Below, piece after piece: positions 6,383-24,122 of a stretch of 24,122 nucleotides of DNA. This stretch comes from a virus. The stretch is from IMG/VR virus record IMGVR_UViG_3300028840_002814, positions 1 to 24,122 of that record; one strand, written 5' to 3'. Both the position numbers and the translations under genes were made by a program. The notes under the pieces are model-generated. The model saw only the letters and a program-made list of their open reading frames with translations. It had not been told where the DNA came from and made no database searches. Position 1 is the stretch's first letter. Every line of letters begins with the position of its first letter.

Positions 6383-6399
6383 CTGTTTGCGGGTATAAT
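6371..6399 (+). promoter_or_regulatory. sigma70-type promoter for the regulator and glycan genes
   Basis: TTGACG at 6371-6376, a 17-base spacer and TATAAT at 6394-6399. A GTG codon begins 7 bases after the -10 box (6406), where transcription should start. The layout is the same as the 795-823 promoter. No other obvious plus-strand promoter is seen until the tRNA, so this one probably reads into the glycosyltransferase operon. Confidence 0.82.
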
Positions 6400-6405
6400 A
6401 TGTAC

Positions 6406-6606
6406 GTGGACATATACGAACGGGACAGCGACAACCGCATCATGGACGTAAAGGTGAATTTCTGGCTTGACGCCGACTTGCGCGATGCCGTGATGGACAA
6501 GGCGCAACGGGAAAGCGTGAATTTGAGCGCGCTGCTGCGTGCGATGCTGCGTGAGTGGCTGGCGGGCACGTACCGCCCGAAGGAAAGGCCCGACGATGTG
6601 GATTAA
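6406..6606 (+). CDS. ribbon-helix-helix DNA-binding protein
   Basis: 66 residues from the leaderless GTG 6406. ATG 6400 lies directly after the -10 box and would be upstream of the transcript start; ATG 6442 gives 54 residues but has no ribosome binding site. The core is a basic-hydrophobic strand (MDVKVNFWL) followed by two helices (ADLRDAVMDKAQRE and NLSALLRAMLREWL), the pattern of Arc/CopG-type dimers that bind DNA with a paired beta ribbon. It sits at the head of the glycan operon, and its promoter carries an inverted repeat, so autoregulation of the operon is likely but inferred. It overlaps the next gene by 11 bases. Confidence 0.75.
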   Translation: MDIYERDSDNRIMDVKVNFWLDADLRDAVMDKAQRESVNLSALLRAMLREWLAGTYRPKERPDDVD

Positions 6607-7279
6607 ACTGAAGACGGTCAAGGACATCGAAAAGGCGGGCAAGCTGGTGCATCACAGCCCTGGCGACTGGGTGGACGTGGGCAAGCAGTTGGCGCTCCGT
6701 TGGGTTCACCAGGGTGATGCAGAGATCATGACTTCGGACGTGCTAGAGTTCATCGACTCCGACACGTCGGGCATCGTGTTGCTGGATCACGAAGAGGCGG
6801 GCAAGATGGCCTTGGCCGAGGTCGCGGGCCACGTTGGTGTGGTGTGCGGCACGTATGAGTTGCGCTGGCCCAAGACGCTGCTATGGAATCCAGAGTTACC
6901 GATGCGCCTGGAGTTGCTGCCCATCGGCTATCACCTGCTCGATACCTGGCAAGTGGCCGCCCCGATGTACGACTATGAGGTGCTGGCCCGTGACGTGGGG
7001 GAGAAGGAAGACAAGGCGCGAACAGCGGATTTGCTGCACACGGCAGACCAGTTGCGACGCAATCCCGCCTGTTACCTGGCCGTGCCCCTGCTGGACTGGC
7101 GGATGGTGTTTGTCAATCGGTGTAGTGATACCGATTACCTGATGAACTGTTGGGATGAGGAGCGGGTGGATAGCACCGACCCGTTCCACTCATTCTTGCG
7201 GGCCGTGTACCGCGCCAAGCCGACAATTTGCACGCTACCGACGACGTGGAGTGATAGGGGGAGAGGGCCAGCGGAGTGA
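6596..7279 (+). CDS. phage protein associated with glycosyltransferases, unknown function
   Basis: 227 residues. ATG 6596 is chosen because AAGGAAAGG lies 7 bases before it. Residues 1-45 (WIKLKTVKDIEKAGK, then PGDWVDVGKQLALRWV) resemble the small beta domain of phage proteins that carry a GDWVDVGKQ-type motif. The rest (TLLWNPELPMRLELLPIGY, then TWQVAAPMYDYEVLA) may be a degenerate GT-like module. Its ending (FHSFLRAVYRAKPTICTLP) recalls the DQGALLRAL endings of the two genes that follow. No catalytic DxD is visible. It is coupled to the next gene by a GTGA overlap. The function is not known. Confidence 0.65.
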   Translation: MWIKLKTVKDIEKAGKLVHHSPGDWVDVGKQLALRWVHQGDAEIMTSDVLEFIDSDTSGIVLLDHEEAGKMALAEVAGHVGVVCGTYELRWPKTLLWNPELPMRLELLPIGYHLLDTWQVAAPMYDYEVLARDVGEKEDKARTADLLHTADQLRRNPACYLAVPLLDWRMVFVNRCSDTDYLMNCWDEERVDSTDPFHSFLRAVYRAKPTICTLPTTWSDRGRGPAE

Positions 7280-7908
7280 ACGGTGTCATATACGTGGCCT
7301 ATGGTGAGCGTGCCCGGCGTGAGGCGCTGATGAGCATCGGGCTATTGCGTCGGCATAGTTGGTTGCCTGCGTGCGTCATTGGCCCGGCGTGCGACCGCAC
7401 ATTCTGGGGCACGCGCCGCCGGGACGTGCATCACATCGCGTTCACCGACCACCATCCTGGCGCGCGATGGGCCAAGTTACATTTCAACATCCTGAGTCCG
7501 TATAGCCAAACGCTCTACCTGGACGCTGACACGCGACCATATCAGGATGTGAGCGTGGGGTTTCAGGCGTTGGCCGATGGATGGGACGTGGCGATGGCTC
7601 CAAGTAGCCAGCAGGATGATGCGTTCCTGTGGCATTGCTCCGAGGCTGACCGTGAGGCGGCGATGGCACCGTACTGGATGCGCCCCCTGGCTCTCCAGGC
7701 GGGCGTAATGTTCGTGCGTCGATGTGAGGCGACGGATGCGCTATTTGAGGCGTGGCGTGAGGAATGGCAAGTGTACCGCGATCAAGACCAGGGCGCGCTA
7801 CTGCGGGCATTGGCCCGTGTGCCGGTGCGGATGTGGCTTCTTGGCAGGGAATGGAACGGGGGTATGATTATCGGGCATCAGTTTGGGATGGCGGCGAGGA
7901 GGCGATAG
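7276..7908 (+). CDS. GT-A fold glycosyltransferase
   Basis: 210 residues from GTG 7276, sharing GTGA with the preceding stop. The protein is a compact nucleotide-sugar transferase: an N-terminal strand GVIYVAYG, the metal-binding D83-A-D85 in TLYLDADTRPY, an LQAGVMFVRR acceptor-loop region and the C-terminal DQGALLRAL motif. The layout resembles GT8 and related families that transfer a sugar from a UDP- or GDP-donor using Mn2+. Donor and acceptor cannot be told. It is a paralogue of the C-terminal half of the next gene (VAYGE...YLDADT...DQGALLRAL). Confidence 0.85.
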   Translation: MNGVIYVAYGERARREALMSIGLLRRHSWLPACVIGPACDRTFWGTRRRDVHHIAFTDHHPGARWAKLHFNILSPYSQTLYLDADTRPYQDVSVGFQALADGWDVAMAPSSQQDDAFLWHCSEADREAAMAPYWMRPLALQAGVMFVRRCEATDALFEAWREEWQVYRDQDQGALLRALARVPVRMWLLGREWNGGMIIGHQFGMAARRR

Positions 7909-9567
7909 GTGCGCGTTCACATCGTAGATAGAGACTATGCCAAGGACCACAACGAGCACGGTATCCTCTCCCGTCTGGCCCGCCTGTTGGCAGACAGTGA
8001 CCCCGCCTGGACCATCAGCGATAGGCCAAGCGACCAGGCTGACCTCAATTGGTTCTCCTCCTACATCGAGTTCGCAGAACGGCACAGCGATTTCTTTGCC
8101 ACCCACACCGCTGCGTTCTTCACCCACTATGAGCAGGGCACGCCGTACAAGGAATTCTGGTGGGACCTGGCCGCAGAGCGCATTGGGCTGCGGCTGACCT
8201 GCGCGCCGATGTACGCGGAGATGCTCAAGGCGACCGGGCCGACCCGGCTGGTGCGTGCGCCTGTGGACCGCGCCAAGTTCACACCAGGCCCGAAGCGCGA
8301 CCACGACTCGCCTGTGGTCGGCCTATCTGGATTCGTGGACCGGCGTAGCGGGCGCAAGGGCGAGGATCTGGTGGCGCGGCTGGCTGCATCATTGGCCGAT
8401 GAGGTGACGTTCGTCGGCAGTGGCAAGGGCTGGCCTGTCCATACCCGCCGCCGCCACATCAACGACCTGCCCGACTTTTACCGGGGCCTCGACGTGCTAT
8501 TGTGTGCCAGTCGCATTGAGGGTGTCCCAATGCCCCCACTGGAGGCGCTGTCTTGCGGCGTGCCCGTTGTCATCCCGATAGGCGTGGGGATGCTGGATCT
8601 GATACCCGATTCACCCGGTGTATACCGATTCCCGGCGGGCGACTATGGCGCGATGGAGCAGGCGGTGCGGGATGCTATCGTTGGGGAGTACGACCCGGAA
8701 AAACTGCGCGATTTGACGGAACCGTACAGCGTGCGAAACTGGGTAGAGGACCACCGCGCCGTATTCGAGGATATCCACGGCAACGTACCCAAGGCAGCGC
8801 TAGAGAGTGACCGTCACGGCAAGCGTGGCGTGTACTATGTGGCCTTTGGCGAACCGGCGCGCAAGTGTGCCCAGGCGTCAATGCTGAGTTTTCGGGAGCA
8901 CGTCCAGCGGGTAGAGGTTGCACTGGCAGCCACGGAGCCGATAGGCGTGGAGGACGTGTGGGTGGAGGTGTTGGATGCAGACATTGGCGGGCGTAGCGCC
9001 AAGACGCGCATCTATGACCTGGCACCGAACGATTGGCAGTACGTGATGTACCTGGACGCCGATACCGAGATAGTTGCCGACCCATCGTTCCTGTTCAAGC
9101 CACTGCTGGACGGGTGGGATATGGTCATCTGCAAAAACCCCGGCAAGTACCACTTGGCCCGCAATATGAAGCGCAGTGACAACGCCGACGAGGTAGAATA
9201 CACCTTCAACATCATCGGCACGGACGAACTCATACAGTTGAACGGCGGCGTATTCACCTTCCAGCGCAATGAGCGCACAGCCGCGTTCTTCCGTTGCTGG
9301 CATCAGGAATGGGCGCGGTGGGGCAAGCGGGACCAGGGGGCGCTACTGCGTGCGCTATGGCAACATCCGTTGCGGCTGATGGTCTTGACGAATCATTGGA
9401 ACTCAATTGTACGTTATATAGATGGGGACGCTAGACAATATACATCTGCGATCTTGCACTTCCCAATGACCGCACGTCGTTGGCGAGGCATTGTGGCGGG
9501 GCGTTCAGATAGTGCCGAGGCGTGGGCCAAAGTGAGGGAGTGGGAGGAGAAGAATCTGGATGTGTGA
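7909..9567 (+). CDS. bifunctional glycosyltransferase: GT-B (GT4-like) plus GT-A domain
   Basis: 552 residues from GTG 7909, immediately after the previous stop. GAGGAGGCG lies 6-14 bases before it. Residues 1-290 form a GT-B half: an AEMLKATGPTRLVRAPVD hinge, then SRIEGVPMPPLEALSCGVP (201-219), the donor-binding E-x7-E motif of GT4 enzymes (E204, E212). Residues 306-552 form a GT-A half with D383-A-D385 in YLDADTEI and DQGALLRAL near 476. The GT-A half is a paralogue of the protein encoded just upstream. Two active sites in one chain suggest successive addition of two sugars. An AT-rich stretch near 9400-9450 is the only compositional oddity. Confidence 0.87.
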   Translation: MRVHIVDRDYAKDHNEHGILSRLARLLADSDPAWTISDRPSDQADLNWFSSYIEFAERHSDFFATHTAAFFTHYEQGTPYKEFWWDLAAERIGLRLTCAPMYAEMLKATGPTRLVRAPVDRAKFTPGPKRDHDSPVVGLSGFVDRRSGRKGEDLVARLAASLADEVTFVGSGKGWPVHTRRRHINDLPDFYRGLDVLLCASRIEGVPMPPLEALSCGVPVVIPIGVGMLDLIPDSPGVYRFPAGDYGAMEQAVRDAIVGEYDPEKLRDLTEPYSVRNWVEDHRAVFEDIHGNVPKAALESDRHGKRGVYYVAFGEPARKCAQASMLSFREHVQRVEVALAATEPIGVEDVWVEVLDADIGGRSAKTRIYDLAPNDWQYVMYLDADTEIVADPSFLFKPLLDGWDMVICKNPGKYHLARNMKRSDNADEVEYTFNIIGTDELIQLNGGVFTFQRNERTAAFFRCWHQEWARWGKRDQGALLRALWQHPLRLMVLTNHWNSIVRYIDGDARQYTSAILHFPMTARRWRGIVAGRSDSAEAWAKVREWEEKNLDV

Positions 9568-9946
9568 TTACGCCTGGGCCAGTGTGGAGGACCGTGTGCC
9601 TGCTGATGAGACTGTGGTATGGGTAGAGGATGCGGTTGAAGGCATTGTGCAGGGCTACTTGCGGAATGGGCAATGGATGGCGCTGCACCCTGGCGGCCTG
9701 GAGGGTGACACTCTCTATCACGTCACGCGCTGGTGGCCGTGGCTGGTGCCGGATCCGATTGAGGCACCAATCGACATTATAGTGCGTATCTACAAGCGTC
9801 CGTGGTGGAAGGTGCTCTTGCGGCTGCCCCGGACGTGGCACGGTCATTACAAGATTATGCGACGATGTGGGGCATCAAGGCTAGTAGCCCTTTGTGGTGC
9901 GTGGGTATTGGCACGTACCCTCTTGATCGTCGGAAAGGAGAAGTAG
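9560..9946 (+). CDS. DUF551-like protein with basic hydrophobic tail
   Basis: 128 residues from ATG 9560, overlapping the previous gene by 8 bases, with GGAGGAGAAG before it. Residues 5-65 resemble DUF551, a small phage domain (WxSVxDRxPxxxxxVxV, then G-Q-W and VTxWxPLP): here WASVEDRVPADE, NGQWMALHPGG and HVTRWWPWLVPDP. The C-terminal part (LLRLPRTWHGHYKIMRRCG, then RLVALCGAWVLARTLL) is basic and amphipathic and may touch the membrane. I recall similar short proteins next to phage glycosyltransferases, but no function is known. Confidence 0.65.
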   Translation: MCDYAWASVEDRVPADETVVWVEDAVEGIVQGYLRNGQWMALHPGGLEGDTLYHVTRWWPWLVPDPIEAPIDIIVRIYKRPWWKVLLRLPRTWHGHYKIMRRCGASRLVALCGAWVLARTLLIVGKEK

Positions 9947-10989
9947 TGAAACCGATTCGCGTCTTGCTCCTGCACCGTGACGAATGGTATCGCTGGCTTC
10001 CCCGCATCGACGGTGGGTTCGCCTATGAGGTACCGCAGTTCATCGTGGACCATCACGTCCTGCCCAAAGCATTCAAGTTACGCCTGGATGCTGATTTGCC
10101 CATCGCGGAGAACGGCAACCCCTGGCCCGACGTGGTATGGTTGGATGAGGGCAAGTTCAAATCGCACTCTGCCATCCTGCCGGGGCGACCGCGTAGCATT
10201 CACAATCTGCCCCCAGTCGTGCAGCACGTCCTATATCCCACCCTGACGGATAGCCACTATCGCACGCGCCTGGAGCGGGCCAAAGCGAACGCCGACTTGG
10301 TGCTGCTGGACCACGATGACCTGGACAGGTGGCGCACGGGATTGGGCAAGGCGCTGCCAGCGCGCCGCTTTGCCTATAGCGTCAATGAGCGATTCTACTG
10401 CGATCAGGGCTTGCGCCGTGACATCGACGTGGGATTCTATTGTGTGTATGCATTCAACCGGGAGCGGCCTGCCCTGGACAAGTGGCTGGAACAGTTCTGC
10501 GAGCGCAAGGGCTGGCACTATGGCAGCACCTACGGCAAGTCAGTTGGCCCGCGCTACGCCCGCCTGTTGGCACGGACCAAGGTCGTGGTTCACCTGAATC
10601 GCACGCCTGCCACCCGCCCGCCACGCATCTTTGATTGTGGGGCCACGGGCACCGCGCTGCTGTCTAACCCGATGCCGCAAGTGTCGGGGGAATACTGGGA
10701 GCCGTGGGTGCATTATGCCGTATTTGAGGAGCCTCGTAGTGAGGAGTACCGTCAGTTCAAAGCCGATGACATCCCGGTGTATGATGACAAAGCCTGTGCT
10801 CAGATCGCGGCGGGTCTGGAATGGCTGTTAGAGCAGGGCAATTGGGAACGGGTAGCGGCCAATACACACGAGCGGGTGTTGGCCTGCCACACCTGGCGGC
10901 AACGGGCCGCCGAACTGTACGCGATGCTGCTGGATGAGTTCCCGCAGCTCAGAGAGGAGCGTGAGGAATGGTGGTATCAGTCTCCGTAA
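9946..10989 (+). CDS. CgeB/YkvP-like GT-B glycosyltransferase
   Basis: 347 residues from GTG 9946, which shares a base with the previous TAG stop and has AAAGGAG 5 bases ahead. An in-frame ATG 48 codons upstream is rejected because it lies deep in the preceding gene. The N-terminal half has alternating strands (IRVLLLHRDEW, PDVVWLDEGKF, ADLVLLDHDDLDRW). The C-terminal half carries YARLLARTKVVVHLNR and RIFDCGATGTALLSN (about 228-241), the family's donor-site region, and ends in an HTWRQRAAELYAMLL helix. This is the Glyco_trans_1_2 type of transferase, common in capsule and phage clusters. Donor and acceptor are unknown. Confidence 0.8.
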   Translation: MKPIRVLLLHRDEWYRWLPRIDGGFAYEVPQFIVDHHVLPKAFKLRLDADLPIAENGNPWPDVVWLDEGKFKSHSAILPGRPRSIHNLPPVVQHVLYPTLTDSHYRTRLERAKANADLVLLDHDDLDRWRTGLGKALPARRFAYSVNERFYCDQGLRRDIDVGFYCVYAFNRERPALDKWLEQFCERKGWHYGSTYGKSVGPRYARLLARTKVVVHLNRTPATRPPRIFDCGATGTALLSNPMPQVSGEYWEPWVHYAVFEEPRSEEYRQFKADDIPVYDDKACAQIAAGLEWLLEQGNWERVAANTHERVLACHTWRQRAAELYAMLLDEFPQLREEREEWWYQSP

Positions 10990-12215
10990 TTGGCCTCGGC
11001 AAATTGGGCTTGCCACTGGCGGCCTCATTTGCCGAACAGGGATTCAATGTCGTTGGCGTGGACAATAATCCCAAAGTGATTGAGAGCGTCAATGCTGGGC
11101 AGGCACACATCTATGAGCCGGGGTTGCCTGAGCTTCTGGTGCGTGTAGTGAAAGCGGGGCAGTTACGTGCCACAATGAACGTGGCGAATGCTGTGGCTTG
11201 GACAGATGTCACGTTCGTATTAGTGCCCACGCCATCCCAGGCAGACAAGCGATTCACGAACAAATTCGTACTCCAGGTCTGCAAGGCGCTGCGGCCAGAA
11301 CTGGACAAGAAGCCGGGGCACGTGGTTGCCATCTCAAGCACGGTGATGCCAGGGTCCTGTGACGGGCCTATCCGTCACGTACTAGGTGATGCCGTTGGCT
11401 TGTGCTACTGCCCAGAGTTCGTGGCGCTTGGCAATACCATTGCTGGGTTTCAGCGCCCCGACTTTGTGTTGATTGGGCAGAGTGACGTGCGGGCGGGTGA
11501 TGTGATGGAAGGCGTCTATAAAGCGTTCTGCACAAATCGCCCACCCATCTTGCGGACAAACCTAGTCAATGCGGAACTCGCCAAGGTCAACTTGAATTTC
11601 GCGGTAACAGCCAAAATCAGCGTAGCCAATACCATAGGGGAAGAGTGTGAGGGCTTCCCCGGTGCAAGTGCGGACGAGGTGACGCGCATCATCGGCCACG
11701 ATAGCCGCATTGGGCACAAGTATTTTAAAGCTGGAACAGCCTTCGGCGGGGCCTGTTTCCCGCGTGACGTTGGGGCAGTCATCGCAACGGCAATAGCGGC
11801 GGGAACGTGGTCGCCATTGGCCGAGGCAGTACACAAGGTCAACCGATACCAGAACGTGCGCCTGACGCGCATCATTGACAGCCTGGAACCGCAGCGTGTA
11901 GGTGTTCTTGGCCTAACGTTCAAGCCGGGGACCGATGTCACGGAGGAGAGCGTTGGGATGTTCCTGGTGGAGCACTACGGCGAGCGGTGCGTGGCCTATG
12001 ACCCGCTGGTGGCGTGCCCGCGTAGTGAGGAGCGATTGCGGGACTGCGTGGATTTTGCCGACGTGGTAGTCGTGACCATTATGCTGCCAGAGTTCCGCGA
12101 TGTGTCATTCTGTGAGGGGCAGACGGTCATCGACTGTTGGCGCTACCTGGACCGGGAGAAGGTGGAGGCCCAGGGGGCACGGTACATTGGGCTTGGATTA
12201 GGTGAAAGGATATAA
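10968..12215 (+). CDS. UDP-glucose/GDP-mannose dehydrogenase family enzyme
   Basis: 415 residues; ATG 10968 lies 22 bases inside the preceding gene, behind GAGGAGCGTGAGGA. It has the full family architecture: NAD-binding G9-L-G-K-L-G14, an EPGLPELL helix, the VPTPS turn, YCPEF near 147-151, K206 and N210 in AKVNLNF, and the catalytic cysteine C263 in GGACFPRD. The C-terminal domain contains LGLTFKPGTDVTEES. The family oxidises the C6 hydroxyl of a nucleotide sugar to a uronic acid with two NAD+. UDP-glucose is the common substrate, but GDP-mannose fits the next gene and cannot be excluded. The usual MxKYxxN segment reads LAKVNLN, a small divergence. Confidence 0.9.
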   Translation: MVVSVSVIGLGKLGLPLAASFAEQGFNVVGVDNNPKVIESVNAGQAHIYEPGLPELLVRVVKAGQLRATMNVANAVAWTDVTFVLVPTPSQADKRFTNKFVLQVCKALRPELDKKPGHVVAISSTVMPGSCDGPIRHVLGDAVGLCYCPEFVALGNTIAGFQRPDFVLIGQSDVRAGDVMEGVYKAFCTNRPPILRTNLVNAELAKVNLNFAVTAKISVANTIGEECEGFPGASADEVTRIIGHDSRIGHKYFKAGTAFGGACFPRDVGAVIATAIAAGTWSPLAEAVHKVNRYQNVRLTRIIDSLEPQRVGVLGLTFKPGTDVTEESVGMFLVEHYGERCVAYDPLVACPRSEERLRDCVDFADVVVVTIMLPEFRDVSFCEGQTVIDCWRYLDREKVEAQGARYIGLGLGERI

Positions 12216-12216
12216 G

Positions 12217-13239
12217 ATGACAAAAACAAGAGTACTCGTCACAGGCGCGGGCGGATTCATCGGGACGTGGCTAGTCCGTCGCCTCAAGCAAGAAGGGTTC
12301 TGGGTACGCGGTGCAGATATCAAGCGCCCACAATGGTCTGCAACCGAGGCCGACGACTGGCGGCCCTTGGACTTGCGCTACCCCGGCAACTGTCGGTCGG
12401 CGTGTGAGGGCATAGATCGGGTGTTCAACCTAGCCGCCGATATGGGTGGGATGGGGTTCATTACCACCCACGATGCGGAAATCATCAGGAACAACACGAT
12501 GATTAACGTGAATATGATAGAGGCTGCCCATCAGGCGGGCGTAGACCGGTACCTCGTGTCATCGAGTGCCTGCATCTATCCGAACTATCTGCAAGATTCG
12601 ATGGACGCCCTACCGCTGCGTGAGGAGGACGCCTATCCCGCCGATCCGCAGGGTGCGTATGGCTGGGAGAAGTTGCACGCCGAACACCTGTGCAAATACT
12701 ACAGGGAGGCCGGATGGTTGGACACGCGCATCGTGCGCTTCCATAACGTTTACGGCCCTGAAGGCAGTTGGGCGGGCGAATGGAACGATGAACGCCAGGA
12801 CTGGGACGGTGGGCGCGAAAAGGCACCGGCAGCGATGTGTCGCAAGGTGGCCGTTGCCAAGCTCAAGGGCACCAGGGAAGTCGAGGTCTGGGGCGATGGG
12901 CAGGCGGTGCGCTCCTATATGCACATCGGTGATTGTGTGGATGGGCTGCTACGCTTTATGGAGTCACCCTACCCCGGCCCGGTGCAGTTTGGGCGCGATA
13001 GGGCCATTACCGTGGATGGGCTGGTGGACCTGATAGCCAACATCGCGGGCATTACGGTGGACAAGGTACACGTCGAGGGGCCGCAGGGCGTGCGGCGGCG
13101 CAATAGCGACAACACGCTATGCCGGGATGTACTGAACTGGGAGCCGATCGTGCCACTTGAGGAAGGGCTGAGAGATACGTATGGCTGGATTGAAGCACAA
13201 GTCGAGAAGGGGCTAAAGGCGCACGGTGTCCTTACCTAA
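12217..13239 (+). CDS. GDP-mannose 3,5-epimerase-like SDR enzyme
   Basis: 340 residues. ATG 12217 is chosen over GTG 12202 because AAAGGA lies 6 bases before it; the previous stop is 1 base away. It has the GxxGxxG motif (G10, G13, G16) and the epimerase signature NLAADMGGMGF (71-81). SSSACIYP holds catalytic C119, Y148-x3-K152 is present, and GGREKAPAA holds K202. GVRRRNSDN follows. These residues are the ones that set plant GDP-mannose 3,5-epimerase apart from other sugar epimerases. The product would be GDP-L-galactose or GDP-L-gulose. A 10-15 residue charged insert (SWAGEWNDERQDW, 184-196) precedes the GGREK loop. It is unusual in a phage. Confidence 0.9.
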   Translation: MTKTRVLVTGAGGFIGTWLVRRLKQEGFWVRGADIKRPQWSATEADDWRPLDLRYPGNCRSACEGIDRVFNLAADMGGMGFITTHDAEIIRNNTMINVNMIEAAHQAGVDRYLVSSSACIYPNYLQDSMDALPLREEDAYPADPQGAYGWEKLHAEHLCKYYREAGWLDTRIVRFHNVYGPEGSWAGEWNDERQDWDGGREKAPAAMCRKVAVAKLKGTREVEVWGDGQAVRSYMHIGDCVDGLLRFMESPYPGPVQFGRDRAITVDGLVDLIANIAGITVDKVHVEGPQGVRRRNSDNTLCRDVLNWEPIVPLEEGLRDTYGWIEAQVEKGLKAHGVLT

Positions 13240-14098
13240 ATGCCTTATCTCCGTCGTAGGTCGCCTACTGTACTGGGACGGACGCAAAGCACACACCGTT
13301 CTGGAGGCAGAGGAGCGCGTGTTTGGTGTCACCTGGGATGAACGTCGCGTATACGTAGCGGCGGGGCGACATCCTGGGCGCGTACTGGTGCTGGATGGAC
13401 GACTGCACACGATAGAGGGGTTTGGTGTGCGCGAGGGCGACCTGTGGGACCTGCATCAGCTATTCTGGCACGGCGGTGTATTGCACGTCGTAGAGACGGG
13501 GCGCAATACGCTGCACCGGGTTGGCCTGAAGCGCATCGGCTGGGAGATGCGCGGCTATTGCGCGCCCAATGACGATCCACATATCAACTCCATCTGGGGC
13601 AACGGGCGGCGACATTGGGTTGTGGAGCACTGGAACGCCTGTTGCCCGAAGCGAGTGCGCGTCTTCGACCAATGCTGGCGCACGTTGACAGTTCACGAGT
13701 TCCACGAGCACCTATTCCCGGCCCGCGTCAAGTCGGGTTTGCACAATGTATTCGTCGAGGGCGGTATACTATACGTATTGAGTCCCGATGCTGTCCTGTG
13801 TAAGCGTCTGGCGCTGGACCAGATAGAGCGACATCCCATCCACGCTACGCTGGCCGCGACCTACCTGCGGGGATTAGCACGCGACAAAGATGGCTTCTAT
13901 ATTGGCGTGTCCAAGTACCGAGAGTCGCGTCCAGACCGTCACCACGGCGATGCGGCGGTGGCTGTGCTGGATGACACTTTGGCCCTGCGTGATTTGGTCG
14001 TATTGGAGGATGCGGGCGAGGTGTACGAGATACGCCTATTGAATGGCGACTGGGCACATAACGTCTTGCCCTGCCCGTTCCAGGGAGGCGCACGGTGA
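13226..14098 (+). CDS. propeller-like protein, paralogue 1
   Basis: 290 residues from GTG 13226, overlapping the epimerase by 14 bases. The chain is built of repeated short strands with turn motifs (LLYWDGR, GVTWDERRVYV, LFWHGGVLHVV, NSIWGNGRRHWVVEHW, LHNVFVEGGILYVL, YLRGLARDKDGFYIG), which suggests a six-bladed beta-propeller. Blocks shared with the gene at 15324: DDPxxNSIW, VVEHW, LHNVxxExGxLYxL, YLRGLARxxxxFYxGxSxYR and a C-terminal AHNxLxCPF. No catalytic motif is recognised. Propellers of this kind occur beside sulfotransferases in some glycan clusters, so binding or modifying the glycan is a guess. Confidence 0.75.
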   Translation: MSLPKCLISVVGRLLYWDGRKAHTVLEAEERVFGVTWDERRVYVAAGRHPGRVLVLDGRLHTIEGFGVREGDLWDLHQLFWHGGVLHVVETGRNTLHRVGLKRIGWEMRGYCAPNDDPHINSIWGNGRRHWVVEHWNACCPKRVRVFDQCWRTLTVHEFHEHLFPARVKSGLHNVFVEGGILYVLSPDAVLCKRLALDQIERHPIHATLAATYLRGLARDKDGFYIGVSKYRESRPDRHHGDAAVAVLDDTLALRDLVVLEDAGEVYEIRLLNGDWAHNVLPCPFQGGAR

Positions 14099-14772: not shown

Positions 14773-14796
14773 ACCCCAGGCCACTTGTAGGTGCGT

Positions 14797-15249: not shown

Positions 15250-15280
15250 TTTGGCCTCCTGAGTATGTGGGTATGCCCCT

Positions 15281-15309
15281 AGTATACCAGGTTAGGGAGA
15301 TTTTGTCAA
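15281..15309 (-). promoter_or_regulatory. sigma70-type promoter of the HNH gene
   Basis: On the minus strand: TTGACA (15309 down to 15304), a 17-base spacer and TATACT (15286 down to 15281). This is nearly consensus. The predicted transcript starts about 25 bases before the ATG and includes the AGGAGG site. Confidence 0.85.
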
Positions 15310-15323
15310 GTGAATATGAAACG

Positions 15324-16840: not shown

Positions 16841-16867
16841 ACACAGGAGCCACTTTTGTGGTACAAT
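16838..16867 (+). promoter_or_regulatory. promoter of the tRNA gene
   Basis: TAGACA (16838-16843), an 18-base spacer and TACAAT (16862-16867), preceded by TGTGG. Predicted start is near 16874, three bases before the mature tRNA. It may also serve the protein genes downstream. Confidence 0.65.
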
Positions 16868-16876
16868 GGAAACGAT

Positions 16877-16955
16877 GGGCAAGTAGCAAAGCGGCAAATG
16901 CGCCCGGCTGTAAACTGGGTCCAATGGTTCGCAGGTTCGAGTCCTGCCTTGCCCA
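16877..16955 (+). tRNA. tRNA-Tyr (GTA anticodon)
   Basis: A cloverleaf by eye: a perfect 7-bp acceptor stem (GGGCAAG with CTTGCCC), T8-A9, and a 3-bp D stem (GCA/TGC) with GG in the loop. The anticodon stem is CCCGG/CTGGG with one G-T pair, and the loop CTGTAAA gives anticodon GTA. The variable region is 11 bases and could form the short arm CCA/TGG expected of bacterial class II tRNA-Tyr. The T arm is GCAGG-TTCGAGT-CCTGC, and the discriminator is A. CCA is not encoded (ACCT follows), so the host must add it. It lies between two protein genes with its own promoter. Confidence 0.92.
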
Positions 16956-16969
16956 CCTTAGAGAGCGAA

Positions 16970-17233
16970 ATGATGCTTGAGGCATTGACACCAGCAGAAG
17001 CAAGGCAGATGGTTGACCAAATGCTCCCTGGCACAGGTTGGCGATTAGGCTATCCAGGACAGCGCCAAGAGCGCATCCACATTCGCGCGGTGGTAGACGA
17101 CCATCATATCGTATTCCGTGTCTGGAGTCGCAATAAACAGCGATGGGGATATTGCGTTGAGCCGCGCCTGCACTTTGAGCTATTCGCTCAAGATGGGGCA
17201 CTAGAGCAAGTAAGGGAGCGCAGCAATAGATGA
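16970..17233 (+). CDS. small hypothetical protein
   Basis: 87 residues from ATG 16970 (86 from the adjacent ATG 16973), starting 15 bases after the tRNA. The open frame reaches further up but only through the tRNA. The sequence begins with a helix (LEALTPAEARQMVDQML). Three strands follow (GWRLGYPG, ERIHIRAVVDDHHIVFRVW, WGYCVEPRLHFELFAQ), a small alpha-beta fold. The ribosome binding site is weak. It overlaps the next gene by ATGA. No family is recognised. Confidence 0.65.
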   Translation: MMLEALTPAEARQMVDQMLPGTGWRLGYPGQRQERIHIRAVVDDHHIVFRVWSRNKQRWGYCVEPRLHFELFAQDGALEQVRERSNR

Positions 17234-18537
17234 GGCGGCACAAAGACCTAGATAATCCCGCATACTGTAAGTGGCTCGACTTTCTCCGCGACGCCTCACG
17301 TTGGGGGCCTGCCACCATTAAGGAGTGGCAGCGGTCGATGTTACGTCAGACGCTATGCCGCGCCGCCCAGTTGCCCGGATACCACGATTTGTGGCAAGGC
17401 ATCCTGCCCTCTCCTGAGACCTTGCCGGGATTGCCCTGGCTGACGCGGGAGATGCTGCGTGACCGGCTGGACGACTTTAGCCTACCCGTGGAAGGCCGCT
17501 ACCGTGTGAGCACAGGCGGCTCCTCTGGCATCCCCATCAGCATCTACCGCGACCCTGAATCGTTCGCCCGTGAGTTGGCGAGCAAGGCGCACCAGTATCA
17601 CCGCGTAATGTGGCGCGAGGGGGACCGGCAGATTGTCCTACGCGGGCGGCCACAGCAGGGCATAGATTTTGTATCCGCATACAACGAACTGCGGTTCTCC
17701 TCCTTCCATCTAACCGATGAACAGATGGAGGACTACTGGCATGCGGCATTGGGCTATGAACCACAATGGCTCCGTTGCTATCCCTCGGCGGGCTACCTGT
17801 TCGCCAAGTTCCTGGTGGATCGGGGGCGGGTGCTGCCCCTGTCGGGCGTACTGTGTGCCTCGGAGAAACTGTATCCATTCCAGAAGCGAATGATGCGCCG
17901 TGCCTTCGGTGAGAATGCGCGGATATTCAGCCACTATGGCAGCTATGAGTTATCTGCCCTGGCTGGCTATTGCCTATACGCGGACACGTATCACGTCTTG
18001 CCGTTCTATGGCATCGTCGAACTACTCCGCCCCGATGGCTCCCACGTCACGCAGCGGGGCGAGGTGGGTGAGATTGTGGCGACCTCATTTGTGGCACGCG
18101 CCACGCCCATCGTGCGGTACAAAACGGGCGACTTGGCCGTGTGGGGTGGTGTGGGCTGCGAACACTGCGGCTTGCCCTATCCGATTTGGCTGGATGTGGA
18201 AGGGCGGCGCTGGGAGTTCGTCATCACCAAGACGGGACGCAAGTTGTCACCGGCTGCGCTGAATGACCACGGCGACCTGTACGACAATTTGCGCCAGTTC
18301 CGATACCACCAGAAAGAGCGGGGCAAGGTAGACCTTCTGTTCGTGCCGCGTGAATCAGGCGTGAATGTGGCGGCTCTCTATCAGCGTGTCAAGGTGCAAT
18401 TGGGGGATGACGTGGACTTGACGGTGCGGGCGGTGGAATCGCTGCCATTGACGACGAGAGGCAAGCACGGGTTTCTTATTCAAGAACTGGATGTGGACGT
18501 GGACTCCACACGCGCGTGGGGGTTTGGGGAAGGATAG
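17230..18537 (+). CDS. CapK/PaaK-like adenylate-forming enzyme
   Basis: 435 residues from ATG 17230 (ATGA overlap). It matches the phenylacetate-CoA ligase/CapK group of ANL adenylating enzymes: P-loop VSTGGSSGIPI (93-103), the HYGSYE substrate motif (235-240), R296-Y-K-T-G-D301, and a C310-E-H-C313 pair before the C-terminal domain. PaaK proteins activate a carboxylic acid with ATP. CapK relatives sit in capsule clusters, where they probably activate an acyl group to be put on a sugar. The C-terminal 10-12 residues (VDSTRAWGFGEG) are encoded by one copy of a direct repeat shared with the next gene, so this tail may be a recent addition. The substrate is unknown. Confidence 0.85.
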   Translation: MRRHKDLDNPAYCKWLDFLRDASRWGPATIKEWQRSMLRQTLCRAAQLPGYHDLWQGILPSPETLPGLPWLTREMLRDRLDDFSLPVEGRYRVSTGGSSGIPISIYRDPESFARELASKAHQYHRVMWREGDRQIVLRGRPQQGIDFVSAYNELRFSSFHLTDEQMEDYWHAALGYEPQWLRCYPSAGYLFAKFLVDRGRVLPLSGVLCASEKLYPFQKRMMRRAFGENARIFSHYGSYELSALAGYCLYADTYHVLPFYGIVELLRPDGSHVTQRGEVGEIVATSFVARATPIVRYKTGDLAVWGGVGCEHCGLPYPIWLDVEGRRWEFVITKTGRKLSPAALNDHGDLYDNLRQFRYHQKERGKVDLLFVPRESGVNVAALYQRVKVQLGDDVDLTVRAVESLPLTTRGKHGFLIQELDVDVDSTRAWGFGEG

Positions 18538-18591
18538 AATGAGGAAACCGACACGTGGTCAGTGGACTCCACGCACGCGTGGGGGTTTGGG
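18499..18591 (+). repeat. 30-bp near-perfect direct repeat at a gene boundary
   Basis: Copies at 18499-18528 and 18562-18591 match at 28 of 30 bases and begin with GTGGACTCCAC. The start-to-start distance is 63 bases (21 codons), so both are in the same reading frame. Copy 1 encodes the C-terminus of the CapK-like enzyme. Copy 2 lies near the start of the membrane protein gene. In the membrane-protein frame both copies read WTP(H/R)(A/T)RGGLG. Confidence 0.85.
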
Positions 18592-18787
18592 TTGGCGAAT
18601 CATAGATGTATTGGCCTTTCTTGTTGTATTGGGCTGTGCTGGCATTGTAATGTATTACGGTCTCATCTATTGGATACTACATCCTGAGCTTACGGGGATG
18701 CAGGTGTTCTTGGCAAATTGGTTGCCTATAGGTTCAGCTATGATGGGAATGCTTGTTCTCTTGGGCATTTTTGGAGATGAGAAGTGA
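18539..18787 (+). CDS. small two-helix membrane protein
   Basis: 82 residues from ATG 18539, with AAGGA about 5 bases ahead. A basic, Pro/Gly-rich N-terminus (RKPTRGQWTPRTRGGLGWR) is followed by two hydrophobic helices, at about 22-44 (VLAFLVVLGCAGIVMYYGLIY) and about 56-77 (LANWLPIGSAMMGMLVLLGIF), and a short acidic tail. The positive-inside rule puts the N-terminus in the cytoplasm. Size and topology would also suit a phage holin, but no lysis enzyme is near. The glycan-gene neighbours instead suggest a partner of the CapA-like or CapK-like enzyme. It overlaps the next gene by GTGA. Confidence 0.7.
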   Translation: MRKPTRGQWTPRTRGGLGWRIIDVLAFLVVLGCAGIVMYYGLIYWILHPELTGMQVFLANWLPIGSAMMGMLVLLGIFGDEK

Positions 18788-19809
18788 CCACACTACTTGC
18801 CGCAGGTGATACCCTCTGCCGACCCGCTGAGGGCAAGCACTACCCGTTCACGCACGTTCACCGCGCACTGGCAGAGGCCGACTTGTGCCTGCTCAATTTG
18901 GAGGCGGCGCTCACCGACCATCCCCCCACGGCCAAGAAGCACATTCGACTCCAGACACCAGCGATAATGGCGGGCTGGCTGGACGTGGCAGGCATCGACG
19001 TGGCCCACCTGGACAATAATCACACGATGGACTGTGGGGAACTGGGCTATCGGGATACATTGGCCTCGGTGGCGGGGGCCGGGGCGCATCCGCTAACCGT
19101 GCGCCGTCGGTGTGTACTGGAAGGCGTTGGATTCTGTGGCGGGCGGGTATTCGCCTATGATGGGCGCGGCGAGGCGCGGATATTGCGCCAGTTGGCCCAA
19201 CTGCTCAAGGACACCAAGACGGCGATTGTGTCGCTGCACTGGGGCGAGGAACATATGCCCTACCCGTCACCGGGGCAAGTGCGTTTTGCCCGTTCGCTGG
19301 TGGACCACGGGGCGACGGTGGTCGTGGGCCACCACCCCCACTGCCCGCAGGGGATTGAAGAGTACCGGGATGGGTTGATTGCCTACAGCCTGGGCAATTT
19401 CAACTTTTGGCAGTTTGATGTGCCACCGCAATGGTACAATCGTCTGGGGTTGATGCTGCGCGTGGCGCTGTCGGCCGGGGGCATCGCGCATTGGGAGGTG
19501 ATGCCTGTCTCTATCGGGGAGGACTATCGGCCTGTCACCATCGCCAATGCACACGCCGAACGGGTGTTGCTGGACAAACTGAGCGCGGGCATCGGGAGGC
19601 AGTCAGAGCGTGAGTGGTACGAGATGCTGGGCTGGGAGTACGTCCGGCAGACGGTGCGCTCTAGCCTACTGGCGGCAAGGGCGCACGGACTGGAACCACT
19701 GCGGCGGTTGGTGCGCTGGTTCACCTTGCGTCACGCACGCAAGGCCATTGCCGGGGCGTTGAGGGCGGGGCCGGTGGATAGGTGGGATGGGTTGTGCTTG
19801 AACCACTGA
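18784..19809 (+). CDS. CapA-family metallophosphoesterase-like protein
   Basis: 341 residues from GTG 18784 (GTGA overlap). It carries the CapA/PGA_cap motifs in order: AAGDTL with D9, LLNLEAAL with N38/E40, HLDNNHTMD with N79/H80, SLHWGEEH with H152, VVGHHPHCPQG with H183/H184/H186, and YSLGNFNF. These form the calcineurin-like metal site. CapA proteins take part in capsule or poly-gamma-glutamate anchoring and transport, often from the membrane. This copy lacks a membrane anchor or signal of its own, so the small membrane protein just upstream may supply one (inference). Its exact reaction is unknown. Confidence 0.88.
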   Translation: MTTLLAAGDTLCRPAEGKHYPFTHVHRALAEADLCLLNLEAALTDHPPTAKKHIRLQTPAIMAGWLDVAGIDVAHLDNNHTMDCGELGYRDTLASVAGAGAHPLTVRRRCVLEGVGFCGGRVFAYDGRGEARILRQLAQLLKDTKTAIVSLHWGEEHMPYPSPGQVRFARSLVDHGATVVVGHHPHCPQGIEEYRDGLIAYSLGNFNFWQFDVPPQWYNRLGLMLRVALSAGGIAHWEVMPVSIGEDYRPVTIANAHAERVLLDKLSAGIGRQSEREWYEMLGWEYVRQTVRSSLLAARAHGLEPLRRLVRWFTLRHARKAIAGALRAGPVDRWDGLCLNH

Positions 19810-20492
19810 CCCGCACGTTCACAGACTACGCCAGCATCGAACTGGTAGACTACTACCCATCCCTGGCGCGCACCTATACCTATGACGAACAGCAGACGAT
19901 GGCCTGGATTGTGGAGCACGCGCGGTCGAATTGGGTGGCCGTGGACGTTGGCGCGCACGTTGGCGTATACACGATGCTCCTTGCGCGGCTGTGCCGATGG
20001 GTACACGCATTTGAGGCGTGCCCTGATACCTATGCCAAGCTGTTGGCTAACCTGGAGCACAATAGGCTGGGCGGGAACGTCATCGCCAATCTGGCTGTCC
20101 TGGGCGACGTGCCTGGGATGCACACCGAGACGCTGTGGTTCGCGGGGCGCGCATCCATCGGCAAGGCGCAAGAGGAGACGACAGAGGTCGAGGTTGTCAC
20201 GCTAGACGGGTACGGGGGGCATAATGCCCAGAGTCCTGTGTGGTGGTCCTATGGTTGGGAGCGCCTGGACTTTCTCAAGGTAGACGTGGATGGATGGGAT
20301 TTGGAGGTGCTGCGCGGGGCGCGAGACACCATCAACCGGCATCGCCCTGTCATCGTGGTTGAGGTCAACGAATCCCTGGAACGCCGGGGGCATACGGTAC
20401 GTGAGGTCGTGGACTGGGTGAACGAGATGCGCTACACCATCCGCCCGATAGACTGGCCTGCGCCGGGAAACTGGCTGATGGAGCCGCGATGA
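19782..20492 (+). CDS. FkbM-family methyltransferase
   Basis: 236 residues from GTG 19782, overlapping the CapA gene by 28 bases. GTG 19794 is a possible alternative start. SAM motif I is VAVDVGAHVGVYTMLLA (53-69), followed by HAFEACPDTYAKLLANL. The C-terminal FLKVDVDGWDLEVLRGA and RPVIVVEVNE are FkbM hallmarks. FkbM enzymes are SAM-dependent O-methyltransferases that often act on sugars or polyketides. It is the second methyltransferase of the cluster and probably another decorating enzyme. It overlaps the next gene by ATGA. Confidence 0.87.
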   Translation: MGWVVLEPLTRTFTDYASIELVDYYPSLARTYTYDEQQTMAWIVEHARSNWVAVDVGAHVGVYTMLLARLCRWVHAFEACPDTYAKLLANLEHNRLGGNVIANLAVLGDVPGMHTETLWFAGRASIGKAQEETTEVEVVTLDGYGGHNAQSPVWWSYGWERLDFLKVDVDGWDLEVLRGARDTINRHRPVIVVEVNESLERRGHTVREVVDWVNEMRYTIRPIDWPAPGNWLMEPR

Positions 20493-21532
20493 AACTGGCC
20501 TTTGTCACTCAACGCTATATGCCCGAATACACTTGGGAGACCACGCGCTGGTCAACGCCAGACGAGATGTTGGATGCCTACGCGCTGCGCTCCAAGAATT
20601 ATGGGATGATATACGAACTGCGCGCCGACTGTTACGTGATAGAGGATGCACACGAGACGGGCGTTCACCGGATGCTCAAGCGGCTGCATCCAGAGGGCAT
20701 CGCGGCGCTGTATGCCAAGCGCAAGGCCACTCCCTGGCGCAAGGTGCCGTGGGAGAATTACGAGGTTGTCATCACCATTGACCCGTGTCTGACGCCAGAA
20801 CTCACGGCACGATACCCGAAGATACTCTGGTGCTACTATGCGGGCGAACACAAAGCGCCGGACTACAAAGCCTCTTGCCAAGCGCCCTATCCCGGCTACG
20901 ACGTGTTTATGGACCACGTACTCAGAATAAAGATGCCACGCCCGTTCCGATTGCCTGTATCTGTGCCCTTCCCGGCACTGGCAAGCAAGCGGGCATTTGA
21001 TGACGTGCTGCATTACGTCAAGCGCGATAACGGGGTATTCTTGGACAGTCGGGCGCTACGCAAGGAGAAGAACCACCGGGACGCCCTCAAGCGGCTATCT
21101 GAACAAGTTGGTCTGCCGGTGCGTGCGCCGCGACCGTGGAACTATGCCGCCTCCTACCTGGAGGCAGCGCGGGGCAACATCGAATCCCCACGCAAGTACC
21201 TGGAACGGGTGAAATCGTGCCGCTACTTTGTGCTGATGCGGGGCACCAAGCGCGGGCCATCGGGCCTCATCGGCCAAGCGGCTATTGAGGCGGCTGCCTG
21301 TGGGTGCATTGTGCTGTCTGGTCACGGTCGCTATCCAGACCGGCTCTGCCACTTGGAGGGCTACATCGATCCGAAGAACTGGAACAGCGTGATAGAGCGC
21401 ATCAAGCGACTGGAGGCCGACGAGCGATTGCGTGCTGAGGTGCTGGCCCACCAGGAGCGCAAGTTGAAAGAGCAGTTCTGGGAGTACCCGATGTCCATCT
21501 TGGGTGAATTATTGGAAAGGAAACGGGAATGA
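20489..21532 (+). CDS. GT-B-like glycosyltransferase, paralogue A
   Basis: 347 residues from ATG 20489. Homologous along its length to the next gene: QRYMPEYTWETTRW, ALRSKNYGMI, VPWENYEVVITIDP, YPKILWCYYAGEHK, GVFLDSR, RPWNYAASYLEAA, RKYLERVKSCRY and IGQAAIEAAACGCIVL. The last segment resembles the donor-site E-x-AACG region of GT-B transferases and of CgeB-like proteins. A sugar-transfer role is inferred from that and from the neighbours; no structure-defining motif is certain. ATGA overlaps on both sides show tight coupling. Confidence 0.72.
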   Translation: MKLAFVTQRYMPEYTWETTRWSTPDEMLDAYALRSKNYGMIYELRADCYVIEDAHETGVHRMLKRLHPEGIAALYAKRKATPWRKVPWENYEVVITIDPCLTPELTARYPKILWCYYAGEHKAPDYKASCQAPYPGYDVFMDHVLRIKMPRPFRLPVSVPFPALASKRAFDDVLHYVKRDNGVFLDSRALRKEKNHRDALKRLSEQVGLPVRAPRPWNYAASYLEAARGNIESPRKYLERVKSCRYFVLMRGTKRGPSGLIGQAAIEAAACGCIVLSGHGRYPDRLCHLEGYIDPKNWNSVIERIKRLEADERLRAEVLAHQERKLKEQFWEYPMSILGELLERKRE

Positions 21533-22575
21533 GGTTTGCCATCGTCAAGCAGCGATATGTACCCGGCTACACCTGGCGCTCCCATCGGTGGGACAACCCC
21601 AAGAGTGTCATCGGCGACTTTATGCTGCGCAGCAAGAACTTCGGCCTACTATTCCACACTGAGGGAGACGTATGGGTGGTCGAGGATTGGCCCTACACTT
21701 CGCATATGCACCAGCGACTCAAGGACCATCAGCCCGCTGCCCTGGATGCCCTACGCACTGCACAAGAGGCCGTGCCCATCGACGCCGTGCCGTGGGATGA
21801 GTACGATGTGGTGATTAGCGTGGACCCGATTCTGCCCCGCTACCTGTTCCGCAAGTATCCGCGAGTACTATGGACCTACTATGCTGGGGAGCACAAGTGC
21901 GGCGATTGGACGGGCGACAAGCCGCGCTATGGCTATGACTTGTTCTTGGATCATACGTTCGATGGAATGGCACCGGAGGGCAACAAGAGCAACAAGCTGC
22001 CCGCCGTGGCGCATTGGCCGATGGTGGCATCCGCCAAGTCGTTCCAGTCTGTGGTGAGCTACAAGCAGCGCGGCCAACGGCTGTTCCTGGACTCACACGG
22101 TATCCGGCACATTCAAGACCTGGACGCCTATCGCGCCAAGCTAGAGGAGCAGTTCGGGATGGAGGTTACGCATCCTCAACCGTGGGACTTTTCGCGCTCC
22201 TTTATGGCCGTGGCGCAACGCCAGATGTGGAGCACGCGGCGCTACTTGCAAGAAGTAGCGCGATGCCGCTATGCCTGGATACCACGCCAAGATGAATACA
22301 TCGGCCAGGCTGCCCCAGAAGCGGCGGCGCTGGGCTGCATCGTGTTGGCTGACTATCGGGCCACGTATCCGGCGATGTTGTGTCACCCGGTAACGCTGAT
22401 GATAGACGGCAGCGACACGGAGGAGGCAGCGCGCATCGTACAGGCGCTAGAGGACAATGAACAGTTGCGGCGAGATGCACGCGCCTATCAAGACAAGCGG
22501 CTACTTGAGCACTTCCAGCGTAGGCCGTTGGATGTGTTGGGGCATTATGTGCGGGTGAAGCGGGGGGAGATATGA
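21529..22575 (+). CDS. GT-B-like glycosyltransferase, paralogue B
   Basis: 348 residues from ATG 21529, with GAAAGGAAACGGG ahead. Shared blocks with paralogue A: KQRYVPGYTWRSHRW, LRSKNFGLLF, VPWDEYDVVISVDP, YPRVLWTYYAGEHK, LFLDSHGIRH, PWDFSRSFMA and IGQAAPEAAALGCIVLAD. Both have a mid-domain YGYD or PGYD segment. The pair looks like a tandem duplication that diverged, perhaps to use different donors or acceptors. The sequences are clearly unequal, so the duplication is not recent. It shares ATGA with the next gene. Confidence 0.72.
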   Translation: MRFAIVKQRYVPGYTWRSHRWDNPKSVIGDFMLRSKNFGLLFHTEGDVWVVEDWPYTSHMHQRLKDHQPAALDALRTAQEAVPIDAVPWDEYDVVISVDPILPRYLFRKYPRVLWTYYAGEHKCGDWTGDKPRYGYDLFLDHTFDGMAPEGNKSNKLPAVAHWPMVASAKSFQSVVSYKQRGQRLFLDSHGIRHIQDLDAYRAKLEEQFGMEVTHPQPWDFSRSFMAVAQRQMWSTRRYLQEVARCRYAWIPRQDEYIGQAAPEAAALGCIVLADYRATYPAMLCHPVTLMIDGSDTEEAARIVQALEDNEQLRRDARAYQDKRLLEHFQRRPLDVLGHYVRVKRGEI

Positions 22576-23519
22576 AAGTAAGCATCATCACCGCAGGGCG
22601 CAACGATAACTATGGCGGCGATTTTAGGGGCCGCACGCTGACAGCCACGGAGTACAACCAAGCTCAGGCAGAGCGCCACGGCATCGACGTAGAGTGGCTG
22701 TTCGTGGAGTGGAACCCGCTGGACGAGAACTATCTATCCTATGAACTGGCCGCCAAGTACGGCTACACCTGCTACGTGGTGGCACCGGAGATACACGCCA
22801 AGCGCGTTCACCCTGACGTGGCGGGCCGAATGACCTTCTGCCAGTTCCTCGCTGTGAACGTGGGATTGCGGCGGGCCACGGGCGACTGGCTGCTCTGCAC
22901 GCACCCGGATGATGCCATAGGGCCGGACGTGTGGCAGCGGCTCAATCAGCCGCTAGACATCGAAACCATCTATCGCGCACGTAGGTATGATGTCCCGGCG
23001 GGACATTTCGGTCAGAGTTGGCAAGAGATGACCGCACGCCGGGGCTTGGACCACGGGGGCGGCTACACCAATGCAGCGGGTGATTTCCTGCTGTTCAGCG
23101 CAGAGTACCGACGGGGGTTTGATGAGTGGGCAGCCTCATTTAGCGACGTGCATACAGACGGGCGATTCGTGTGCTCTTGGATGCGGGAGCGCACGGGCGA
23201 CATCCACTGGAACACGCGCTACTGCCAGTTCATCGGCACCATCTACAAGTGCGACCATCCGATGATCTACCGGCGCAGCGGTGGCGCGCACCGGGGCAAG
23301 CCCAAGTGGAAATCAAAGGAGCGGCGCACCCGAAGCGGGCGCGGCCTGTACGACAACCCGCCGGATTGGGGACTAGCCAGCGAGCCAGGCGCCAGCACTG
23401 GTACAACAATGAGGGCGGGCCGTTCGTGGTGGATGGAGTCAACGTCACCCGTCGTCAGATGGACGTACACGGCGGGCCGGACCCGACGCACTATCGATGC
23501 GAAACCTGCCAGGCGCTAG
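22572..23519 (+). CDS. GT2-like glycosyltransferase with disrupted C-terminus
   Basis: 315 residues from ATG 22572 (ATGA overlap). The first about 270 residues read as a GT-A enzyme of GT2 type: MKVSIITAGRND, DVEWLFVEWNP, and the metal-site TGDWLLCTHPDDAIGPDVW (HPDD in place of DxD). AAGDFLLFSAEYRRGFDE follows, like a GT2 acceptor region. From about codon 272 (DNPPDWGLASEPG) to the stop, the protein turns low-complexity and basic (GTTMRAGRSWWMEST). Another frame then carries sensible sequence, which suggests a frameshift near 23370-23395. The GT2 domain itself looks whole. Confidence 0.8.
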   Translation: MKVSIITAGRNDNYGGDFRGRTLTATEYNQAQAERHGIDVEWLFVEWNPLDENYLSYELAAKYGYTCYVVAPEIHAKRVHPDVAGRMTFCQFLAVNVGLRRATGDWLLCTHPDDAIGPDVWQRLNQPLDIETIYRARRYDVPAGHFGQSWQEMTARRGLDHGGGYTNAAGDFLLFSAEYRRGFDEWAASFSDVHTDGRFVCSWMRERTGDIHWNTRYCQFIGTIYKCDHPMIYRRSGGAHRGKPKWKSKERRTRSGRGLYDNPPDWGLASEPGASTGTTMRAGRSWWMESTSPVVRWTYTAGRTRRTIDAKPARR

Positions 23520-24122
23520 AGTGGACATCGCGCACGACGCAAACGAATCGCTGGCACCGGCACAGCTGCAAGAACACGGGGCGATTGAGAGAGGAAGTTA
23601 TCGCCTCTTGCAAGCGCCAGGGCAGCGAGTGGTGGACGCACATGCACTCCTGCTACTGGTATGGCGTAGCCCACGACCCGACGCTGAATGCGCCCAAGAT
23701 GGCCGTATTCTACACCACGGAACGAGGCTATCGGGAGTTCTGGACACGGGCCGGATTCCACGTCAACATCAACAAGCAGCGGTGCTTTGCCCGTGCCTGC
23801 CAAGTCGAACCGTTCCTGTTGTCCGATATGCCGCGCATCGACTGGAAGCAATACGACCTGTGCCTGATTCACAACCGGCGAGAGGTGGAGCTCTATCCAC
23901 GCCCCACAGTGCCTATCATTCTCTTCTGTTGGGACCCGTGGAAAGGAAACCCGCAAGCAGCACTCAATCACTATCAGCCGGAACACGTCATCTCGCCATC
24001 ACCGCAATTGTGGTTGGACAAGATGACGATGCCGAAGCACACGAAGGTATGGTTGTATGCAGCCGGAGAGGGCAACTACTTCACGCACCCCAACCTGGAA
24101 CCGACACGCAAGTGCGTGGATT
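23381..24122 (+). CDS. GT-like protein continuing in the -1 frame (partial, start uncertain)
   Basis: From about 23381 to the window end a frame one base back from the GT2 gene stays open for about 247 codons without a stop. It starts with QHWYNNEGGPFVVDG and then holds a metal-binding patch (RCETCQALEW, then WHRHSC). Further on come MAVFYTTERGYREFWTRAGF, YDLCLIHNRRE, VPIILFCWDPWKGNP and WLYAAGEGNYFTHPN, which look like the N-half of a GT-B enzyme. No convincing start codon or ribosome binding site precedes it; an in-frame GTG at 23307 and ATG codons further in exist. The simplest reading is a single GT2-plus-GT-B gene broken by a one-base deletion, or joined by frameshifting. Confidence 0.65.

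Follow-up and report, generated by a model that had tools for sequence, protein, structure and literature searches.

A glycan gene cassette inside the head module of a tailed phage suggests a sugar-coated virus particle

The viral record IMGVR_UViG_3300028840_002814 of IMG/VR (positions 1-24,122; this 24,122-base stretch is called the window here) carries a glycan-making cassette at 6596-24122, directly downstream of the genes for a prohead protease, an HK97-type major capsid protein (MCP) and a small jelly-roll protein, p28483. Gene order and gene families, the latter called with Pfam and PHROGs on the window and on a 71-kb contig, suggest that the phage coats its own particle with sugars, and the cassette probably glycosylates the particle (head) proteins in the cytoplasm of the host. 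The first genes of the cassette form a core that is kept beside the capsid genes in nearly all relatives. Downstream of this core, and ahead of the head-tail connector, lies a cargo island whose content differs from one phage to another.

The cassette and its capsid-linked core

The phage has the head module of an HK97-type tailed phage: terminase, portal, protease and MCP are followed by connector and tail genes, with the large terminase subunit assigned from its position, from an intein and from matches in relatives. In the window, where the features from the protease onwards are on the plus strand unless stated otherwise, the prohead serine protease (the capsid maturation protease) occupies 2979..4529 (Peptidase_S78, PF04586, E 5e-11; phrog_80), the MCP 4533..5849 (PF05065, E 9e-45) and p28483 5863..6309 (phrog_28483). 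A small ribbon-helix-helix protein at 6400..6606 (PF01402, E 0.004, below the Pfam cut-off) lies between p28483 and the cassette.

The rest of the locus is visible on G001, a 71,162-base IMG/VR contig of the same phage, which contains window positions 1-23395 at 99.99% identity and 23389-24122 at 100%. Its gene order is terminase with intein, portal, minor head protein, protease, MCP, p28483, cassette, gp6-like connector, HK97-gp10-like protein and tail genes, and the replication genes come after the tail genes on the opposite strand. The cassette spans about 15.5-38.2 kb of G001, thus running ~5 kb past the end of the window, and the tail genes that the earlier sequence-only reading had proposed to look for in complete phage or prophage genomes do follow it. 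As the two records possibly derive from related samples, G001 is to be taken as support rather than as fully independent proof. The intein splicing domain lies inside the large terminase gene (L009:1170-3440, G001).

The core begins with three genes. The first, g10 (6596..7279), joins a small N-terminal domain to a GT-A-like domain without the DxD motif; the second, GT11 (7276..7908), is a GT-A glycosyltransferase (GT) with a DADT motif; the third, GT12 (7909..9567), fuses a GT4-type N-terminal half (PF13692) to a GT11-type C-terminal half. By hhalign, the GT11 family matches the C-terminal half of GT12 (100%) and the C-terminal part of g10 (99.4%). After a small protein without a Pfam family (9560..9946), the GT4-like glycosyltransferase GT14 follows at 9946..10989 (PF13524, E 3.5e-12), and this gene is also frequent in relatives. 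The DxD motif is kept in 28/28 rows of GT11 and in 20/20 rows of GT12. Profile matches are distant: GT11 matches glycogenin-2 weakly (E 5e-5) and nothing in Pfam, and the GT4 half of GT12 has weak matches among GT4 enzymes, glycogen synthases included.

The case of g10 is different. Its AlphaFold2 (AF2) model is confident (predicted local distance difference test, pLDDT, 92) and the top PDB matches are GT-A folds, with E-values not significant alone, yet almost every row has other residues in place of the DxD; DxD-like letters remain in 3/33, one of which belongs to the fused, active GT of L033. Judged by its sequence, g10 resembles a glycosyltransferase that has lost its catalytic motif, and it is best called a putative pseudo-glycosyltransferase. 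Its N-terminal domain recurs in the relative G005 on three different proteins, namely a DxD transferase, a GT2-family protein and a g10-like protein, two of them intact transferases, and this occurrence on active transferases suggests that it may be a portable docking domain. A domain of the same type seemed likely by eye on GT31 of G001, was absent by profile and was dropped.

As for p28483, its AF2 model is a jelly-roll (pLDDT 91), and Foldseek matches it to jelly-roll coat and lectin domains and to small phage proteins. A small beta-sandwich encoded beside the MCP fits a capsid decoration protein, and this fold and position make p28483 a putative one and a candidate glycan acceptor. In L046 the gene is present in two tandem copies (7481-7924 and 7981-8418).

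How general is this arrangement? Searches of viral contigs retrieved 38 loci via the capsid protein and 21 via GT12, with capsid relatives at 42-80% identity, and our own profiles find the order MCP, p28483, g10, GT11, GT12 in most loci. Among the 33 contigs with a capsid match and at least 3.3 kb downstream, a set that takes in contigs found via GT12 itself, metagenome-bin matches and one spurious capsid match, p28483 is present in 32, g10 in 31, GT11 in 31 and GT12 in 28. When only contigs from the viral capsid search with at least 3.3 kb downstream are counted, some of them near-duplicates, a GT11-family protein with DxD occurs in 22/23, g10 in 21/23 and GT12 in 19/23. The capsid match of L022, a weak 18-bit one, was excluded from the count. 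L042 shows no GTs in the stretch seen, which holds inserted genes and then ends; more generally, contig fragments limit claims of gene absence. The junction of capsid and GT genes recurs in divergent viral contigs, as the sequence-only reading had suggested checking.

The space available to the cassette varies greatly. In the 11 contigs that reach the gp6-like gene, the distance from the MCP to it ranges from 5.0 to 25.9 kb, with G001 the largest, and it is 1.0 kb from capsid to gp6-like gene in Caulobacter phage TMCBR2. The nearest empty site is that of Bradyrhizobium phage ppBdUSDA122-1, which has a capsid protein and a p28483 homologue in the same order and no GTs found there. In a second HK97 lineage (L020, L024), GT12 and a g10-type protein lie among the head genes. 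L020, L022, L023 and L024 form a separate contig group that pairs GT12 with a g10-type protein; in the first three, this protein has no N-terminal domain and carries a C-terminal extension of its own. On another contig, G007 (IMGVR_UViG_3300010413_000041, 55 kb), the GT11 gene is split over both contig ends, which may mean that the genome is complete and circularly permuted.

The likely target of the sugars

Which molecule receives the glycan? If the placement of the genes is a guide, it would be a head protein, most likely the decoration protein at 5863-6309, modified prior to lysis. The conserved core of g10, GT11, GT12 and often GT14 may build a sugar chain on it, with GT11 as the starter and GT12 as the extender; g10, lacking DxD, would assist without catalysing, perhaps by docking the transferases to their substrate. 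The island would supply a uronic acid through its dehydrogenase and GDP-L-galactose or -gulose through its epimerase; it could also add further transferases, sulfate, methyl and possibly, via its CapK-like ligase, acyl or amide groups, and each phage lineage would end with a different surface glycan.

This reading draws on what is present and on what is missing. Families of the initiating phosphoglycosyl transferase and the flippase (PF02397, PF00953, PF01943) are absent in five phages, in searches whose controls were positive; these two activities of a Wzx/Wzy-type capsule locus are thus missing, and host enzymes could substitute for them. For a cytoplasmic enzyme set that sits on the capsid side, has a single small membrane protein and comes with neither a lipid-carrier transferase nor a flippase, glycosylation of phage proteins is the simplest reading. 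The weak best match of GT11, glycogenin, is a protein-attached starter GT, and by analogy this was counted on the same side. Between the two outcomes first proposed, a glycan on the virion or a changed host capsule, the GT core beside the capsid and decoration genes and the lack of membrane-lipid machinery favour the virion and weaken the capsule.

Other points weigh against glycosylation of the particle. CapA- and CapK-like proteins are usually tied to cell-surface polymers, several of the fold and family matches are weak, and the phage could borrow the lipid carriers and exporters of its host, so that the absence of its own is indirect evidence. In addition, the data stop short of strict co-inheritance of MCP and GTs. 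With 11-18 close capsid relatives, distances of the MCP did not correlate significantly with those of the GTs (r 0.07-0.22). Because of this, a wider set of relatives was tried, and Mantel tests then gave r 0.57 for p28483 distances against g10 and 0.58 against GT11 (p 0.0003), and somewhat less, 0.43, for the MCP against g10/GT11. The wider signal is significant but moderate and the correlations vary with the choice of relatives; exchange within the clade may thus occur.

Since host carriers could serve, the main rival is that the cassette remodels the host surface (capsule, lipopolysaccharide or S-layer glycan), blocking superinfection or altering receptors, and that its site in the late operon is incidental. 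In its favour are the CapA and CapK families, a group of sugar-nucleotide genes like that of capsule loci, and comparable cyanophage clusters that sit outside the structural genes. However, the core keeps its place beside the capsid and decoration genes in nearly all relatives, the five phages lack their own initiating transferase and flippase, the single membrane protein is small and the CapA-like protein has no membrane anchor; this reading is unlikely, albeit with a real share of the probability.

A less probable proposal is that only tail or tail-fibre proteins are glycosylated, sparing the head and tuning adsorption. Tail genes do come directly after the cassette, and tail tube subunits of mycobacteriophages are described as glycosylated too (PMC12619734, citing Freeman 2023), but the core has the genes for capsid and decoration protein as its nearest neighbours, and its distances follow those of p28483. 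Hypermodification of the phage DNA against restriction would be another use for GTs, given that phage enzymes of this kind are able to modify DNA (Pyle 2024, cited in PMC12619734). Here the thymidylate-synthase/hydroxymethylase family PF00303, which DNA glucosylation would call for in making modified pyrimidines, is absent in the five phages, some possibly incomplete, and the enzymes for uronic acid, sulfation and FkbM methylation, together with the capsid-side placement, point elsewhere, which makes this option very improbable. Finally, a chimeric contig, with phage DNA joined to bacterial capsule DNA at 6310-6600, is the outcome that the sequence-only reading had named as its refutation. It might have explained why large bacterial-type enzymes adjoin capsid genes, but it is ruled out by G001, which has the same junction and tail genes past the cassette, by the intact junction of divergent relatives and by a sequence composition that is unbroken across it.

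If the particle is indeed the target, the locus might be viewed as a coat-serotype locus, in which g10 docks starter and extender onto the decoration protein and the exchangeable island rewrites the glycan, like bacterial O-antigen loci; this extension is offered tentatively and is clearly less secure than glycosylation of the particle itself.

Comparison with known systems

Phage glycosylation as such is not new. Virion glycosylation is described for the mycobacteriophage Che8 and its relatives (Freeman et al. 2023, as reported in PMC12619734 and PMC11256854), and in these accounts, as proposed here, phage-encoded GTs act on structural proteins of the phage itself, a role either presumed or demonstrated. 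Maravista, a close relative, is reported to carry its GTs towards the 3' genome end, whereas the window phage has a core beside the capsid genes plus a variable island.

The cyanophages S-SCSM1 and S-PRM1 carry similar multi-gene sets of GTs, nucleotide-sugar enzymes and methyltransferases, and in S-SCSM1 a propeller homologue comes immediately after a GDP-mannose 3,5-epimerase, an arrangement shared with the window. Unlike the cassette, their clusters lie outside the capsid module, in much larger T4-like phages, and the GT11/GT12/g10 core was not detected in the tested stretches of these cyanophages. A set of this size inside a structural region had been called rare; large clusters have precedents in the cyanophages, and it is the placement in the capsid module that was not seen in those. 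For the core itself, 50,697 phage records gave no sequence match to GT11, GT12 or GT14. Glycogenin and glycogen synthase (GT8 and GT4-GT5) offer, through the weak matches, the idea of a protein-bound starter and an extender, but they are distant and serve as a working analogy only. It appears, then, that the new element is the capsid-linked core plus variable island, and no description of such a core with a pseudo-transferase was found in the literature searched, a search that most subscription papers fall outside.

With regard to the host, metagenome bins that bear the labels Anaerolineae, Gammaproteobacteria and Phycisphaerae gave the only close capsid matches. Searches for GT12 in genomes of the surrounding classes gave 4/396, 1/397 and 0/369, mostly short contigs, and for this reason no host is claimed.

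If the proposal is correct, a widespread environmental group of phages makes its own surface glycans, which vary, by means of a core that stays next to the shell genes. This would provide a testable model of phage surface variation, along with pairs of small transferases that work on phage proteins in the cytoplasm. It would also account for the large "capsule-like" sets in phage contigs, usually filed as auxiliary host genes.

The variable island and neighbouring genes

The island of the window starts with two enzymes of nucleotide-sugar metabolism. The first, a UDP-glucose 6-dehydrogenase-type enzyme (10968..12215), exceeds the cut-off of TIGR03026 and matches a UDP-glucose dehydrogenase in the PDB (E 1e-57); it is present in 1/10 of the other records searched. 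The second (12202..13239) had been listed simply as an epimerase and can be narrowed to a GDP-mannose 3,5-epimerase, its closest solved relative, which scores 306 bits where the next family reaches 95; the active-site Cys, YxxxK and Lys motifs are all kept. Next come two related family-less proteins, at 13226..14098 and 15240..16163, which look like beta-propellers from their sequence repeats, the second having its homologue in the S-SCSM1 glycan cluster. They flank a sulfotransferase (14095..14772; PF13469, E 3e-8) and an inserted HNH endonuclease on the minus strand (14797..15249; PF01844, E 3e-10). The cassette had been described as a run of overlapping genes in one direction: the overlaps of a few bases are there, but the HNH gene breaks the strict single direction.

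Further along are a SAM (S-adenosylmethionine) methyltransferase of the Methyltransf_24/CmcI-like type (16145..16840; PF13578, E 5e-17), a tRNA-Tyr (GTA) found by ARAGORN inside the cassette (16877..16957) and a small protein without a Pfam family (16970..17233). The CapK/PaaK-like AMP-dependent ligase (17230..18537; NF045666, E 4e-19, below the equivalog cut-off) is followed by a small two-helix protein (18491..18787), by hydropathy the sole clear membrane protein of the cassette, by the anchorless CapA-like (PGA_cap) protein (18784..19809; PF09587, E 8e-44) and by an FkbM methyltransferase (19782..20492; PF05050, E 9e-20). Family searches thus agree with the first list of a dehydrogenase, a sulfotransferase, two methyltransferases and CapK- and CapA-like proteins. 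The enzyme families for a sulfated, methylated glycan are present; the modifications themselves are predicted from them.

At the far end lie GT27 (20489..21532; GT4-like, PF00534, E 6e-4), GT28 (21529..22575; GT4-like, PF13524, E 1e-3) and GT29 (22572..23395; GT2-like, PF00535, E 1e-3), all three with E-values that miss the curated cut-offs. GT30 (23389..24122; G001 32388-33668), with its start missing and its end cut by the window, has no Pfam match and is GT-like by its resemblance to its neighbour in the 71-kb contig. Together with the genes at 7276, 7909 (with both a GT4 and a GT-A half) and 9946, these make up at least six GT-like proteins, as first claimed. G001 has 82 extra bases at window position 23395 (G001 32320-32396), and this difference alters the 3' end of GT29 and merges the last two GT genes of the window out of frame; it is either an assembly error or a natural deletion. 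In G005-G008, open reading frames inspected by eye, with no family search, include a DegT-type aminotransferase, an asparagine-synthase-like protein, transketolase halves, epimerases and methyltransferases.

Some insertions were also noted upstream of the capsid genes. A long protein of zinc-finger repeats, with a nuclease of the Vsr/MTES_1575 type at its end, is inserted directly ahead of the prohead protease (1705-2979, minus strand), and L003 has an HNH-like gene slightly upstream of its protease. Within the same structural region of the window, 830-1426 encodes a protein with a twin-arginine translocation (TAT) signal sequence (PF10518, above the cut-off).

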